Part shown: in pieces, positions 12,361-61,194 of the stretch
Layout: every line of letters begins with the position of its first letter
Numbering within the stretch: position 1 is the first letter of the stretch
Assembly (NCBI GenBank): GCA_010093485.1
Contig: MU001503.1
Span: 889,132 to 953,131, forward strand
DNA length: 64,000 nucleotides
Origin: Karstenula rhodostoma CBS 690.94
Lineage: Eukaryota; Ascomycota; Dothideomycetes; Pleosporales; Didymosphaeriaceae
Direction of reading: 5' to 3'
Position numbers and translations under genes: made by a program
The notes under the pieces: model-generated
The model's database searches: none
What the model was told of the DNA's origin: nothing
What the model saw: the letters and a program-made list of their open reading frames with translations, nothing else

Positions 12361-12605
12361 TGATCTGAATAATGATGGCGTTGGGGTTTTGTACATGGGA
12401 CTCGGTGTTTGATTTGTGTAGTATATACATCTCTAGGCCCTCAGCTCAACTCTATATAAACAGTGAACTATTCTAGCACTCCCGTCATTGCCCACCGAGC
12501 CAACACTCTCGTAAAAATGAAAGGGTACAATGAAACCGAAGAAAAAAACCATCGATGCCATAAGGTGGGAGGGAGAGACAGGACAAGAAAACAGCAAAAA
12601 AGAGA
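12361..12605. other. 3' flank
   Basis: Short spacer between the mitochondrial-type gene and the tRNA gene; nothing seen in it. Confidence 0.4.
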
Positions 12606-12689
12606 GGTCGTGCCCGGAATCGAACCGGGGTTGCCGGAATGTCCTGAGATGATCAGAATCCGGAGTGATAACCGCTACACTACACAACC
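12606..12689 (-). tRNA. tRNA-Gln (anticodon CTG) with a 13-nt intron
   Basis: The reverse complement folds as a complete cloverleaf. Acceptor arm GGTTGTG/CACGACC (7 bp, one G-T), D-arm GTG/CAC around a GCGGTTA loop, anticodon stem CCGGA/TCCGG, T-arm CCCGG/CCGGG around TTCGATT. The anticodon loop reads TTCTGA, then 13 extra bases, then T. A 13-nt intron therefore sits one base 3' of the anticodon, the canonical eukaryotic position. Mature length is 71 nt before CCA addition. The CTG anticodon decodes CAG (Gln), and the D-arm and acceptor resemble fungal tRNA-Gln. Internal A and B boxes serve as the Pol III promoter. Confidence 0.93.
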
Positions 12690-54706: not shown

Positions 54707-55277
54707 ATCATGCGCGGCGTCGTACCGGCAGAGGCCGTAAGAGGCTCGGAAACCCAGTCGCGGTTTCTGTGGCGGTTTGCTAAGTCTTCATCACAACAAA
54801 AGGGGAGATGGATGGATGCGAGGATGGAGATGAGTGAAGTGGGGTGGTGGAGAGTTCCTGGGATAGCAGTGTGACAGGGCTTAGGTCGTTCTCACTCTGG
54901 ATCTTCATACGGTATGGCGTTTAGGTCTATGTTTCATTTCCTACTCTAGTATCTTGCTTCCTCCTTACGGTGGCGCGGCATGAAATGCTCTTTACTTTGT
55001 ATCGCTTGTCGGCCTGTTCGTTTGCAGCGGCGATACCCGGCGTACGTATGGTAGTCTAGCAAATGCTCTGAAGTACCTCCCTCTCTTCCTGTCTGGACCC
55101 TCATAGGAAGAGTTTTGATGTGTTTCGGAAAACCCAGCACCCGAGGCGGCATCGCTCATCCGGTGTCTATTTGTCAATCCCTCTCGCACCCATACTCTCA
55201 ACATCGTCACATACGAGGTAGCCTTTTGGGACAAGATATTCCCGTCAAGAGGTTTCAGTTGTACCTCCACACCTCGT
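54707..55277. other. Flank between the membrane-protein gene and the repeat array
   Basis: 3' flank of the gene ending at 54706, followed by sequence that grades into the array. No gene supportable. Confidence 0.4.
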
Positions 55278-55859
55278 GATGCACTCTTGGACAGTTTTGG
55301 AAGGTCCTACACCAAAGGCCACATTTGCCTCGGCGATGTGTGCTTTTTTTCTTACCACTCCACCCCCGCTCCCCACCATATGTATATGTGAGAGCGCTTT
55401 TTAGCCGCATGCTTCGTTCGCTATCAGTTTTTTGTCCCTCGGCAGGCTCCTGGATGCACTCTTAGACAGGCCAGGAAGGTCCAGCACCGACAACGGCATC
55501 AGCCGCAGTCGTCTCTATTTATGGATCACTCCCAGGCTCCGGTATGGGTAGATGCGGAAAGGCTTTTTAGACATACGGGTGTTTGGTCCCGTCATTTTTA
55601 GTTCTGCTTGCGCAACTCATGATATGTCAGGTAGGAGTTTGAGTGCCTGCTCCAGACACACGGTTTTTCCTCAGTTCTACTTTTAGTGACGTCCTAGATC
55701 GAGGATTTCTGTGGAGAGCGAAAGGGCCGTGTGAGAGGGGCTTGAAGCATCTTCCATCATGCCGGTTTCACGGTATTCCTTTTCCAAGGGGATGCGGACA
55801 TAGAAACGGCGGATTAGGTTTTTTAAAGGCACGAGGTTGAGGAATCCCGAGTCTCACAC

Positions 55860-56175
55860 TCCACGCACATATAACGACCCTCTTCGAGTAATTAGTCGCT
55901 GCCATGGTCCCACAGTACATGGGGTCATCCCTGTGGAGTTTTTTTGGTATACCGCACCACATTTAGGGACTTGGGTGACTTTTAACATCCCGCAACGCAC
56001 CACATCTAAGGTATGGAAGTGTGCTTTTATTACGCCGAAAGCCCAGGGTTTGAGTGGAGTATAGAAAGTGGGGGGAGTAGAGGGTATATACATGTCGATT
56101 GTGGAGCTCCAGCATAGAGACAGCGACTTGTGGTTGGAGATCATGGGGTTGAAGAACCACGAGGCTCACAACCCC
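55860..56175 (-). repeat. Array unit, left-hand (type 1)
   Basis: Four CACAT-ended boxes at 55861-55870, 55909-55920, 55952-55962 and 55991-56005, a TATA run at 56085-56090, and the type-1 upstream element (GTGGAGCTCCAGCAT on the plus strand) just beyond. More diverged than the right-hand units. Confidence 0.6.
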
Positions 56176-58599
56176 GCGCACGCTCGACTTCATATGACCA
56201 AACCCTGGCCGCTTTTTCAAGCTCACAGCTCATGTGTCTGTGGCATGTAGCATACTCTTCGGTGTGTCTTACACGCCACATTGTTTTTTGTTGCGGTAGT
56301 TTTTAAACCGCTGCGCACACCACATTCGGTCAGATGCAAACGCCTTTTAGTGCCCAGAGCGCTCAGGGTTTGTGCGAAGCAGAGGAGATGGATGGAGCGA
56401 GGGGTTTATATGTCGTTCTTTTGGGGATGGGAGCTCCAAACATGGAAAGGATTGACTGTGGTTGAAGATCATGCGGTTGAGTAATCCCGAGTCTTATTTC
56501 CATTGTAGTTTTGAGAGCTGGCGCGGGTTCACTCCACATGAGATTGTTGTTATGAGCTTTTTGGATGGCTTTCTGCACGGCATGGAGCAGTTTTGGGAGG
56601 TTTTTAGTCCTTGCCGCACCACATGAGGTGGTACTGGAGTCTTTTTGGTCACCAGAACGCCGGAATTGTGTGGGGTACAGGAGTGAATTAGACGGGGATT
56701 CGATATATATTGTGACAGTGGAGCGCCGGACACACACGTGTCGGACTTCGACTTTGAATCCCTGAAGTTCAGCAGATCAGGGCCTCACGCCACAGACATT
56801 TGTGTCATCGCTGTGTGATTTCAATCGCTGGCGCGGTCTCACAGCACATGAATGTCCTGATCTTCCGGTTTTCAATATATTGTCCGTTTGCCTTCCACGC
56901 AACATGCCCGAAGTTGTTACCATCTTTAAACCTCCACGTACGCCACATGAGCAACTATTCCAAGATCTTTATAAGAGTCCGAAAGCTCTGAGAATGTGTG
57001 AAAGAAAGAAAGATACATGTAGAATTGTATCCACGTCAATTGTGGGATCCAGAGATGTAGGTAGTAGGACACAGCGATTTGGGAGTCGTGAGTTTTAGCT
57101 AGGAGTCTCACTCCACGAAAATCAAATGCTTGCCTCCGTGTTACTAGTCGTTGCTGCAGTTACAATGCATTAAATCTGATTCTTCGACTTTAGCCCGTCT
57201 TCATGGTTGTGTTCCCATACGCAAAATCCGCCAGATCAGATCGCAAGCTGATTCGCTCCACATAGTTCCGTGCTTCGTTCATTCTTACTCCAAGTTACGC
57301 AGCACATTTTTTCGTCGGATGTGCTTTTAGGTCCCCCAACAGACACACGCCACATATCTGTCCCTGGAGCTGGATTCTAATGAGATTAAAATCCAGAAAG
57401 TCGTGTAACATGCAGAAGGATGCACAATTGGAAGTTCATATACTGCCGATTGTGTATTCGGACATCGACATAGTAGATAAAAACTTCGAAGTCAAAGGAT
57501 CGAAAAGGTAGATTTTGAAGTCTCCCATTCCACACACGCCAGGTACCAATACTTGATTTTTAGCTGCCACCACTCTCCTCCACATATCTGAAAACCAATC
57601 CTTTTTTTGTCCCAGTCCCACAGCATATAAATAATTCTTCCAGCATGTGGCTTCAGTACTCCACAACGCACCACATCGTAGTTCTTGATGTGTATTTTTA
57701 GAGAGCTGACAATCCAAGGAAGTAGCTTGCATTTCTAGTCACCACCGCCCTCCTCCACATTCGAACGGGTGGTGATTCTTTTTAGTCTCGGCTTTACAGT
57801 ACATATGGTTCCCAGCCTGGCGTTTAGTCTTCCAATAGGCATGCACATGATGCGATGCGTTTAGTAATCTTCTAAAACACTTCACAAGTATAGGACAAAG
57901 TGTGAGGAGCAGAAGGGATGCGGGTTTTATGGAACATGAAACATGGAGCTTCGGACATGAGAAAGTGAAGAAGGCTTCTAAGTCATAGTTGCTGGCAATT
58001 TAAGCTTTTGGGCCCCTCGCTCCACGCACATGTATCGGAATGATGTGCGTTTTTAGTCCCTGTTCACAGTACATTACTCGATGGCGAGCTTTTAGTCCTC
58101 CACAACACACCAAACAGCATGTCTTACTCCTGCTTTTTCTGCACACCTCACAAGTACAGGAGGTTGTTTGAGGAGGAAAAGGGACGCGGAGTGAATAATT
58201 TGTACACTTGTTGACAGTGGAGATCCGGACATCGATATAGCAGCCGGTGGGCTCCAAGTCATGTCATCTTAGGCAGATGGGTTTTGAAGTCTCCGGCTCC
58301 ACACACATTTGGTATAACACCATCTTGTTTGAGTCTGGTCTCCAAAGCACATCGGCTTCTAAGGATGGTGTTTTTGGTCCTCCGCCACGCACCGCATGAA
58401 CATCCTCCTCACCAGGTTTTACAGTTGTCGAAACCCCGGACAGTTGTGTGGGTAGCAGAAGCGACGCAGATTGTGAGTTGTATATACACTTCAGGTCAGA
58501 CTGAAGAATAGTTGTGACGACGATGATGCTCAACACGCAGCATCGATAGAGTTTCTCAGATGATTGGAGGAGAAAAAGAAGACGCCGAGCCAGAGCTTC

Positions 58600-58820
58600 A
58601 GTTCAATCAACGTTTTAGTCCCACTGTCGGACCACATAACAAGCCTTGTTGCAAAGTTTTGTCCCCTCACAACGCACCACATAAATATGGTCTTGCTTGG
58701 TTTTAGTGGGGTTGAAGACGCAAAAGATCGTGTGAAGTAGAAGGCCTATGGAAGGAAGATTTTATATACACCTCAGGAGGTCAAGTATAGACTGCTGATG
58801 GTGATGCTCAGCATGCAACA
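58600..58820 (-). repeat. Array unit with two boxes (type 2)
   Basis: Boxes 58611-58637 and 58656-58682 with an 18-nt spacer (58638-58655). The leader contains GTGTGAAGTAGAAGG on the plus strand; TATA run at 58763-58768; the type-2 upstream element GATGGTGATGCTCAGCATG follows at about 58796-58814. Confidence 0.7.
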
Positions 58821-58884
58821 TTGATGGCGCTATTCGGGTAATCGAGGGAGAAAAGGTATGCCAGGCCATGCGGTAGATGCAGAG

Positions 58885-59085
58885 AAAGTTTTCGTCGTCC
58901 AGCTGCACCACATGACGCGGCGCCGACGGTGATTTTAAGTCCTCCACAGGGCACCACATATGGGATAAGCCAAGGTTTTTCTAGAAAGCCTGAGAACCTA
59001 AAAAACTGAGTAGAACGAGGCAGAGAATGAACGAGGACGTTATATGCATCTCTAGCCTAGCGAAGAACAGTGATGATGATATTTT
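58885..59085 (-). repeat. Array unit with two boxes (type 2)
   Basis: Boxes 58888-58913 and 58931-58959 with a 17-nt spacer. Leader with GAGTAGAACGAGGCAGAG; TATAT at 59041; upstream element GTGATGATGATATT. Confidence 0.7.
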
Positions 59086-59129
59086 GTAGATAGGCGTTGC
59101 TAAAAGCAACATCATGGTCAAAACCAGTG

Positions 59130-59337
59130 TCGCATTTTAGTCGTCCTCAAACTTCATCTGTATTGTGTCTTCATACTTTTAATCCCCCACAGTACACCCC
59201 ATTCGTCGTCTCGCGTCTGTGTTTTAAAGAGCCTGAACCCCCAAGAGCTGTGTGGAGTGAAGACAGTGCAGAGCGAGGGGTATATATACTTCTTTAGTCC
59301 GACAAAAGGACAGTGACCATGATGATGCTCATCATGT
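59130..59337 (-). repeat. Array unit with two boxes (type 2)
   Basis: Boxes 59133-59157 and 59175-59202 with a 17-nt spacer. The leader (GAGCCTGAACCCCCAAGAGC, then TGTGTGGAGTGAAGACAG) abuts TATATATA at 59281-59288; the upstream element GACCATGATGATGCTCATC follows. Confidence 0.75.
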
Positions 59338-59399
59338 AATGCGAAGAAGGCAGTTAGTGCTCAGGGTTGAGGAGACGCAGGGCCGTAGTAAAGGGTATG

Positions 59400-59650
59400 T
59401 AGACTTATAGTCCTCCAAAGCAGAACACATAATACACCATCTGCAGGTTTTTGGACATCCAGAGCGCACTACATAACTACAGGAAGCGTGAAGTTTTGGT
59501 CCGCAGCTCACCCCATGAACACCATCTGGATTGTTTTTAGACAGCCCGAAAGCTCGAGGAATTGTGTGGAGTGCAGAAGAGAGACAGACGGCGCTTTAAA
59601 TACTTTTTGGGGCCTGTGGCGGGGTGGTGATGATGCTCACCACCATGCGT
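59400..59650 (-). repeat. Array unit with three boxes (type 2), best preserved
   Basis: Boxes 59403-59430, 59446-59474 and 59493-59516, with spacers of 15 and 18 nt. The leader GCCCGAAAGCTCGAGGAATT, then GTGTGGAGTGCAGAAGAGAG, precedes a TTTAAATA box at 59595-59602; the upstream element GGTGATGATGCTCACC follows. This unit shows the consensus order most clearly. Confidence 0.75.
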
Positions 59651-59660
59651 CGGTTACAGA

Positions 59661-59967: not shown

Positions 59968-61194
59968 TCATACAGCACTGTAACCACCCCTGCTGCCCGG
60001 ACTTTGGACCACGTTCACAACTTTGCGCCCCAAGTCCTTCACCATGTACGGGATATCGCGAATGGCGTCGCCGTGGGGGAGGAGGTCCCAGCCGCGGGCG
60101 CCATAGCGGTTGTAGTTAAGCCAGGAGCCGAAGATGAGGTATGTTGCGGTGGCGAGGAAGAGGCTGTTGTCTATGTTAGCTCATTGTTTGGTCATCGATA
60201 TAGGCAGGGTAGCTTACATGATGATGAACCACGTGAAGAAACCCCAATGGCTGCCACCGTCGGGTGCAGGCGCATCCTTACACGCATACTTGGTGCGCCA
60301 TTCCAGCCGCAAGGTCTTCACCTTGGCATCCTTGTCGGTCTTCTCGTCCTCGTAACCACAGAAGCGCAGACTCGCATCGCTGTCTTCACATTTGCCCTTT
60401 TCACCCTCTCGTCGACTCAGCTTCTTCTCCTCCTTCTTGTCGCCGTCCTCACCCTTGCCACCACCCTTGCCATCACCCTTGCCATCACCCTTGTCGTCAC
60501 CCTTGTCGTCGCCCTCATCCTTCTTCGGATCCTCAGCATGCTCGTTGTTGTCTTTTTCGGCACCCTCATCGCCCTCACGTTCCCGGTCGCAGACGAAATC
60601 GATGATGGCGCGCTGCTTCACTCCTTCCTTGCTGGAGTCGAAGGGGTGGCGGCCGCCGTGTAACTCTACTTGCACACCTTCTGAGTCTTGCAGAAGCTCA
60701 AACTTGGGGTCGAGGATCGCTTTGGGGCCGTTCTTCATCGTGTATGTACCAGCGATGTCGACGGCCGAGATGGTGTCGTTCTCGTCTCCGTAGATGTCGT
60801 GAAATGTGCGGACGCCGCATACTGGGGAAGATTAGTGTTCTGGTTGTGGGAAAGTCGACAGATGGGTCCAAGGGAAGTTCGAAGGTGGATACGGCAAGCA
60901 CCGATGAGAATTGAAATCGCACGTACCTCTTGCACCATCATGACACCAATTTTTTGGATCCACGCCCTTATCCCGCTTCAGTATATTGCAAACATCCAGC
61001 GTGAAGTTCCAGCGAGCTTCCATATCTTCGCTGACCAGCGAGTCTGTCCAGTGCACCACGCGCGGTCCACCTAGCTTCTCGAAGTTGAAGTGCTGGCCCT
61101 TGGCAAGGATGTCATTGCAGGCAAAAGCTGCTAGCGAGGAGGGCAGGATGGCGGACAAGGCGAGCAAAAGGTGGGATGTCCGCGGAGGATACAT
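59968..61194 (-). CDS. atg27: Autophagy-related protein 27
   Basis: Three exons, complement(59968..60163, 60218..60821, 60927..61194), introns of 54 and 105 bp; 355 residues. A signal peptide (MYPPRTSHLLLALSAILPSS, then LAAFAC) is followed by a Cys-rich mannose-6-phosphate-receptor-like lumenal domain, with KWDLSxL-type start replaced by FNFEKLGG and paired Cys in TLDVCNIL, NWCHD, RVCGV and DFVCDRE. One membrane helix lies near the C-terminus, rebuilt across intron 2 (WFIIILFLATATYLIFGSWL). The tail ends GGYSAV, carrying the C-terminal YSAV-type tyrosine sorting signal known for yeast Atg27. The protein cycles between vacuole, Golgi and Atg9 vesicles. The lumenal domain contains an unusual insertion of Lys/Gly/Asp repeats (about 40 residues). 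Confidence 0.93.

Follow-up and report, generated by a model that had tools for sequence, protein, structure and literature searches.

The Ruby-motif (type I) genes for Piwi-interacting RNAs (piRNAs) in Caenorhabditis elegans, or 21U-RNA genes, carry a single 8-nucleotide (nt) motif (CTGTTTCA), which lies upstream at a distance of about 40 bp, and each gives rise to a precursor of 28 to 29 nt (PMC4015492). In CRISPR arrays, a constant element alternates with unique spacers of fixed length. Polycistronic clusters of C/D-box small nucleolar RNAs (snoRNAs) align RNA modules in tandem, each holding a guide segment flanked by short boxes (RUGAUGA for the C box and CUGA for the D box), and the bacterial sponge RNAs CsrB and RsmZ, which are encoded by few genes, repeat a protein-binding GGA motif in hairpin loops at a preferred spacing. 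In fungi, microRNA-like RNAs (milRNAs) arise from hairpins (PMC9757828). An array that bears some likeness to all of these lies on the minus strand at positions 55197 to 59660 of a 64-kb stretch of DNA (the window; C12:889132-953131) from a fungus of the Didymosphaeriaceae (Pleosporales), whose genome comprises 44.3 Mb in 29 contigs; given the window's position within C12, which is 1.87 Mb long, the array sits in mid-contig. Parsing and a matrix scan resolve it into 13 tandem units and a decayed tail below about 55570, where modules are weaker and scattered.

Each unit contains modules of the form ACUAAAA-N18/19-AUGUGG, in which two constant tags enclose an insert of fixed length and the linkers between modules vary. 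There is strong support for the conclusion that this array belongs to a large family of promoter-led, apparently noncoding modular genes with many scattered loci. The reading that we prefer, with a probability of roughly 0.4, is that these are RNA polymerase II-type small RNA genes displaying hypervariable, guide-like inserts of fixed length; both their transcription and their guide function are inferred from DNA sequence.

The original prediction had recognized boxes on the minus strand that begin with ATGTGGTG and end with GGACTAAAAC, separated by unrelated DNA and arranged in about a dozen units over 4.4 kb. Reading and parsing of the sequence recover such boxes in the window at 55200 to 59660, and a scan with two matrices, whose training modules all came from outside the window, confirms them: at a score of at least 12, there are 33 modules on the minus strand of this region, whereas the rest of the window's minus strand has 6, the entire plus strand has 5 (none within the array region), and two reversed controls have 5 and 6. 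At a score of 14, the corresponding numbers are 25, 2, 1, and 2 and 3. The predicted organization of boxes and unique spacers holds, with the refinement that the constant part is the insert, with 18 to 19 nt lying between CTAAAA and ATG, and that the linker varies. The dozen units prove to be 13, in which a TATA-like box and a motif resembling a start site precede the grouped modules. The order within a unit is the TATA-like box, a CT-rich tract, the start motif (for example, TCCACACAA), a leader whose 3' end is CTAAAA or a variant of it in the 13 units, and the modules. Start motifs, with positions picked by eye, are 248 to 502 bp apart, and, measured between hand-chosen landmarks, the first box ends 109 to 120 nt after TATA in all 13 units.

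A primary-sequence model of the stretch from TATA to the first box recovers its own 13 training units at 34 to 69 bits, along with a partial copy at 57652-57720 (24 bits) and seven weaker pieces, all within the array; it has no match up to an E value of 10 outside the array across the window. As had been predicted, the boxes diverge and keep both ends, with a mean column identity of 56% across the 13 units and the tags retained. With called repeat families at 60 to 90% identity, the array lacks the near-identical direct repeats of CRISPR. A simple tandem repeat was considered and rejected, and the earlier statement that this is no simple minisatellite agrees with Tandem Repeats Finder, which makes no call within the array interval.

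The main statistics are based on 31 stretches (221,731 nt, including the window), to which five further stretches were later added. Because these stretches had been chosen by pattern hits, strict hits were omitted from the spacing counts. Among the remaining tag-to-ATG distances, 30 are of 18 nt, 52 of 19 nt, and 13 of 20 nt; all other distances occur 0 to 7 times each up to 50 nt and 2 to 10 times each at 51 to 60 nt, which is the reach of the next module, and reversed sequence yields 0 to 4. Linker length, counted from ATG through the following tag, has its peak at 26 to 27 nt with a broad spread, and modules recur every 43 to 47 nt. The consensus from 198 modules (195 without three overlapping calls) is GG(A/T)CTAAAA-N18/19-ATGTG(G/C). 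Linkers are G-rich (G, 0.35) and G/U-rich on the array strand, and inserts are slightly A-rich (A, 0.30) with no consensus.

As parts of both tags had been imposed by the search patterns, CTAAAA was also counted without this constraint. In 20 clusters spanning 64.9 kb, it occurs 154 times on the array strand and 10 times on the opposite strand, and ATG follows at +18 in 42 and at +19 in 63 of the 154 array-strand cases, the hits used to fetch the loci being included. Two short motifs at a fixed distance are also what pairs of factor-binding sites would present, 18 to 19 bp apart and clustered near promoters, but the strand bias of 154 to 10, the unvarying order of parts downstream of TATA and the start motif, and linkers rich in G and U on that strand argue for RNA rather than for regulatory sites at the DNA level, which we consider quite unlikely.

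The same grammar recurs across the genome, where each pattern was counted with its reversed form as the control. CTAAAA-N{16,20}-ATGTGGNG occurs 42 times, versus 2 for the reversed pattern; by their coordinates, 36 of the 42 have a spacing of 18 to 19 nt, 4 of 17 nt, 2 of 20 nt, and 0 of 16 nt, and a version with N{21,50} shows no excess (17 versus 17). The two-module pattern CTAAAA-N{15,20}-ATGNGG-N{8,34}-CTAAAA is found 24 times versus 0, and CTAAAA-N{18,19}-ATGNGG at least 103 times versus 16. Adding the start motif (CACACT-N{14,34}-CTAAAA-N{18,19}-ATG) gives 44 versus 0, and adding the TATA box (GTATAWA-N{45,70}-CTAAAA-N{18,19}-ATG) gives 89 versus 2; together, these two patterns place units on 16 of the 29 contigs. 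A box-only pattern with three mismatches is weak genome-wide (9 versus 4). The TATA pattern is strict, capturing 1 of the 13 window units and 4 of the 6 units of a cluster at C13:198 kb, and "hundreds of units" is therefore a fair estimate, yet an estimate. As a DNA query against its own genome, in a search scoring only the best candidates, the 4,383-nt array matches only itself, and thus it is not a recent mobile family. Routine annotation would miss the family because its copies share little alignable sequence. The interpretation offered in the original prediction is partly supported; the promoters, the fixed insert length, and the genome-wide family go beyond what had been observed.

In modules with enough upstream sequence, TATAWA lies 50 to 100 nt before the tag in 33 of 186, distributed over 17 clusters, and its distance from the tag peaks at 56 to 70 nt, whereas that of CACAC peaks at 21 to 30 nt. 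The start motif is present in 22 of these 33 promoter-led first modules, 29 to 52 nt from TATA (32 to 37 nt in 16) and 18 to 43 nt before the tag. Units mostly contain one to three modules, both in the window and at loci L043 and L053; by eye, at least six modules stand behind one promoter at L051 (C11:577800-579600, minus strand). The motif CATCAYC/GRTGATG occurs upstream in 10 of the 33 first-module promoters (6 of 17 clusters), compared to 1.6 in shuffles, but it was not established as a shared promoter element, being found also in 8 of 33 stretches farther upstream. Palindrome-like sequences, either CATCACC...GGTGATG or GATAATAATCATCATC, recur by eye about 30 to 80 nt before TATA at L043, L053, and L055.

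This architecture resembles that of the 21U-RNA genes: in both, a great number of minute units have their own promoters, and a constant motif lies upstream of a short sequence unique to each unit, at a defined distance from it. Unlike those genes, the array has a TATA box together with a start motif, its inserts are flanked by a tag on either side, and a unit holds several modules. A promoter element precedes the units, as shown by the counts for the TATA and start-motif patterns; this element is not the Ruby motif as such, for which no search was made. The likeness to CRISPR that had been remarked on is outward only: the tags are short, the linkers vary, the boxes have diverged, a eukaryotic-type promoter recurs every few modules, the loci are many and dispersed, no origin was found for two inserts searched against their own genome, and ten proteins near the arrays are ordinary.

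With their promoter and brief leader, and with ATG some 55 nt past the start motif, the units could also be mRNAs for short peptides, with the ATG after the first insert as start codon and CTAAAA as an element of the 5' leader. Stop codons after this ATG, however, appear at 0.031, 0.029, and 0.033 per codon in the three frames, with no frame depleted of stops and hence no sign of a protein-coding family, the length from ATG to CTAAAA shows no period of three, and modules recur at every 43 to 47 nt, which makes such mRNAs very unlikely. Short open reading frames or introns within the boxes were ruled out by the lack of frame bias and of a period of three.

The inserts differ from the rest of the module in how far they have diverged. 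Between modules of the 20 clusters, similarity is 0.330 for inserts, versus 0.318 when shuffled, and 0.385 for linkers, versus 0.332 (three self-overlapping pairs included). First inserts were compared in 53 promoter-led units from 20 clusters, which form 109 within-cluster pairs. In the 15 pairs whose identity from TATA to the tag is at least 0.6, insert identity is about 0.31, against 0.318 for shuffles, and tag-plus-linker identity, a figure that includes six tag bases, is about 0.68 (Wilcoxon test, P = 3e-4, the pairs being nonindependent). At C4:2.73 Mb, linkers are 0.80 to 0.90 identical and inserts 0.26 to 0.37. In the C13:198 kb cluster, of which 4 of the 6 units were parsed, identity is 0.40 for inserts, 0.49 from TATA to the start motif, 0.60 for the leader, 0.67 for the linker, and 0.68 for the promoter. 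The neighboring modules at C13:198008 and C13:198723 partly share their inserts (0.75), as do, among the matches listed, those at C11:578536 and C11:578629, which indicates that inserts are inherited at duplication and then change. Tandem duplication, wide divergence, and the weak tail of the array below 55570 would fit functionless repeats in decay, but decay would blur the tags, the TATA box, and the spacing along with the inserts; those features are kept while the inserts stand at shuffle level, and we view this explanation as unlikely.

Under our preferred reading, the insert would be the variable working part of the module, as it is fixed in length, free in sequence, placed between constant tags, and repeated both within units and across separately promoted genes. 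Each unit would give a short, largely unstructured transcript, on which a protein complex may read both tags at their measured distance of 18 to 19 nt. The insert between the CUAAAA and AUGUGG tags would then serve as a short guide, either displayed in place or cut free at the tags, and could pair with other nucleic acids. Tandem duplication would multiply units; their tags, leader, and promoter would be retained, and the inserts would subsequently change or be exchanged for others. A fuller proposal, which we advance tentatively, is an RNA-guided system with hundreds of exchangeable 18- to 19-nt guides, renewed faster than the surrounding DNA, that might serve in defense or in the silencing of foreign or host transcripts.

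Several results weigh against guides. The 40 nt upstream of TATA have an identity of only 0.46 in the 14 pairs of the 0.6 to 0.7 class, and in the C13:198 kb cluster inserts (0.40) are little below the TATA-to-start stretch (0.49), so that insert change at a faster-than-neutral rate is not proved. In the suggested comparison of spacers with genomic sequences, two single inserts, with up to two mismatches allowed, match only themselves in their own genome, where no target of theirs was found. Long matches of inserts to the 221,731 bases of the studied stretches are not in excess over those of shuffled inserts. The preference for a 5' T (U), which is common to many Argonaute guides, is absent from the inserts (T, 0.14 to 0.19 at the first position). 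A free insert sequence is also compatible with a mere ruler. A query that joined 23 of the 68 picked inserts with N returned no matches in the genome, missing the inserts' own loci as well, and therefore carries no information for or against guides.

Some of these results sit well with a protein-binding RNA, either sponge or scaffold, in which a two-site RNA-binding protein would grip CUAAAA and AUGUGG 18 to 19 nt apart across an insert that is simply a ruler of free sequence, and in which several modules per transcript would titrate or gather the protein, as CsrB and RsmZ do for CsrA. Such an RNA covers the fixed spacing, the free insert sequence, and the several modules per unit without needing targets, and it fits the two inserts without a second genomic match and the lack of a 5' base preference. 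But a ruler needs no hundreds of separately promoted genes, and we know of no protein partner for the tags. The divergence of inserts to shuffle level even where the linkers of units are similar also speaks against it, though a free ruler could drift likewise. We rate this alternative as somewhat unlikely. The array shares with CsrB and RsmZ a repeated motif at a preferred spacing, and it has no structure like their hairpin loops.

The original prediction had also invoked a structured element, for which there is little support. RNAalifold finds no pairs on the 13 units; 195 modules of 90 nt fold like shuffles (mean z, -0.13), and the 39-nt core that contains the insert shows no excess of folding (mean z, +0.09; n = 195). 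The 54 internal linkers are hardly better folded, at -0.40 ± 0.24 kcal/mol relative to dinucleotide shuffles and -0.73 ± 0.26 relative to mononucleotide shuffles. Only the 27 nt before the tag, in the leaders of the 89 units matching the TATA pattern, are more stably folded than their shuffles, the difference being 0.77 ± 0.17 kcal/mol (P = 4e-5), compared with 0.18 ± 0.16 kcal/mol for an upstream control stretch. Pair-by-pair covariation in the leader is not significant (best z of 1.69, versus permuted maxima averaging 2.07), and for this reason the leader hairpin is only a lead. In 53 internal linkers, covariation reaches 3.07, the 95% point of permutations being 2.98, but this site is not that of the leader stem. 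At L051, a perfect hairpin of six pairs can be drawn in the first linker, ATGGGGCGTCTCCTGTTGGAGACTAAAA, directly before the tag.

Like the fungal milRNA loci, the array might give rise to small RNAs, in a genome that contains Argonaute-type genes; unlike the hairpins from which milRNAs derive, its modules fold no better than shuffles (n = 195). A search of Rfam (release 15) at the gathering threshold gives no match to the array in the window or at 15 further loci, and with E values up to 1 the sole match is PreQ1-III, at 23.8 bits versus a cutoff of 63. A known Rfam RNA, including the snoRNA families, was rejected on the lack of any array match. The tags CUAAAA and AUGUGG also differ from the C and D boxes of snoRNA clusters. 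A literature search, covering open PMC papers, found nothing like these arrays.

If the inserts are guides, the family would represent a nuclear guide-array logic in fungi unlike that of hairpin milRNAs or transposon-derived small interfering RNAs, and its readable grammar (tag, 18 or 19 nt, tag) would let inserts be catalogued and their targets sought in different strains and species. Should they be only rulers, the family would still comprise many small RNA genes that share a promoter architecture of their own.

On the minus strand of the window, unit 1 (59423..59603) has a TATA-like box at 59603, a start motif at about 59570, and inserts at 59534-59517, 59493-59475, and 59448-59431. Unit 2 (59150..59289) follows with TATA at 59289, a start motif at about 59256, and inserts at 59221-59203 and 59176-59158, and unit 3 (58906..59047) with a TATA-like box at 59047 and inserts at 58978-58960 and 58933-58914, plus a third, 58888-58870, that scores below 12. 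TATA lies at 58769 in unit 4 (58630..58769; start motif at about 58736; inserts at 58700-58683 and 58656-58638) and at 58487 in unit 5 (58301..58487; start motif at about 58452; inserts at 58416-58398, 58371-58353, and 58327-58309). The TATA boxes of units 6 and 7 are diverged: that of unit 6 (58024..58207), at 58207, precedes a single insert scoring at least 12 (58050-58032), and that of unit 7 (57578..57934), at 57934, precedes inserts at 57779-57761, 57695-57677, and 57603-57586, with a partial second unit at 57720-57652. Unit 8 (57256..57443) has TATA at 57443 and inserts at 57324-57308 and 57282-57264; unit 9 (56792..57032) has a TATA-like box at 57032, a start motif at about 57002, and inserts at 56869-56850 and 56818-56800. 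Then come unit 10 (56532..56708), with TATA at 56708, a start motif at about 56674, and inserts at 56642-56625, 56601-56584, and 56558-56540; unit 11 (56274..56413), with TATA at 56413, a start motif at about 56378, and inserts at 56344-56326 and 56300-56282; and unit 12 (55794..56091), with TATA at 56091, a start motif at about 56058, and inserts at 56024-56006, 55979-55963, and 55820-55802. Unit 13 (55567..55750), the weakest at 34 bits, has a TATA-like box at 55750 and inserts at 55637-55621 and 55595-55575, and weak modules lie beyond it at 55428-55411, 55398-55382, and 55223-55205. A second recurring element, approximately GAGCTCCACAATCGACATG, stands immediately before several of the TATA boxes (56118-56095, 57050-57020, and 56728-56700, minus strand).

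A Pfam scan of the ten proteins near arrays found an adaptin, an EFTUD2/Snu114-like GTPase, a squalene epoxidase, and LCAT, ThiF, rhodopsin-like, SH3, Sel1, thioesterase, and Zn-cluster regulator proteins; none of the ten is of a Cas type, and no genome-wide search for Cas families was made. A window protein of 1,270 amino acids is 73% identical to a protein of Paraphaeosphaeria sporulosa, the top match from a named species, its best match overall being 77%; on this basis, the fungus belongs in or near the Didymosphaeriaceae. Piwi-domain genes in the genome give eight matches, four of which span nearly the whole domain, and their presence is in keeping with the guide reading. One such Argonaute-type gene (C10:1660616-1661599) is separated by about 5.6 kb from a unit with a promoter (C10:1654966-1654995; L033), a closeness that is probably due to chance, and the remaining Piwi matches are far from every array match listed. 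The Piwi-domain sequence at C1:2112780-2113839 is split in two, with two stop codons in one of the pieces, and is perhaps a broken Argonaute copy. Elsewhere in the window, there is a tRNA-Ser (TGA) at 12604-12689 on the minus strand and, at 60449-60505, a 12-bp tandem repeat (consensus TCACCCTTGCCA, 4.8 copies) within a lysine/aspartate-rich open reading frame on the minus strand.

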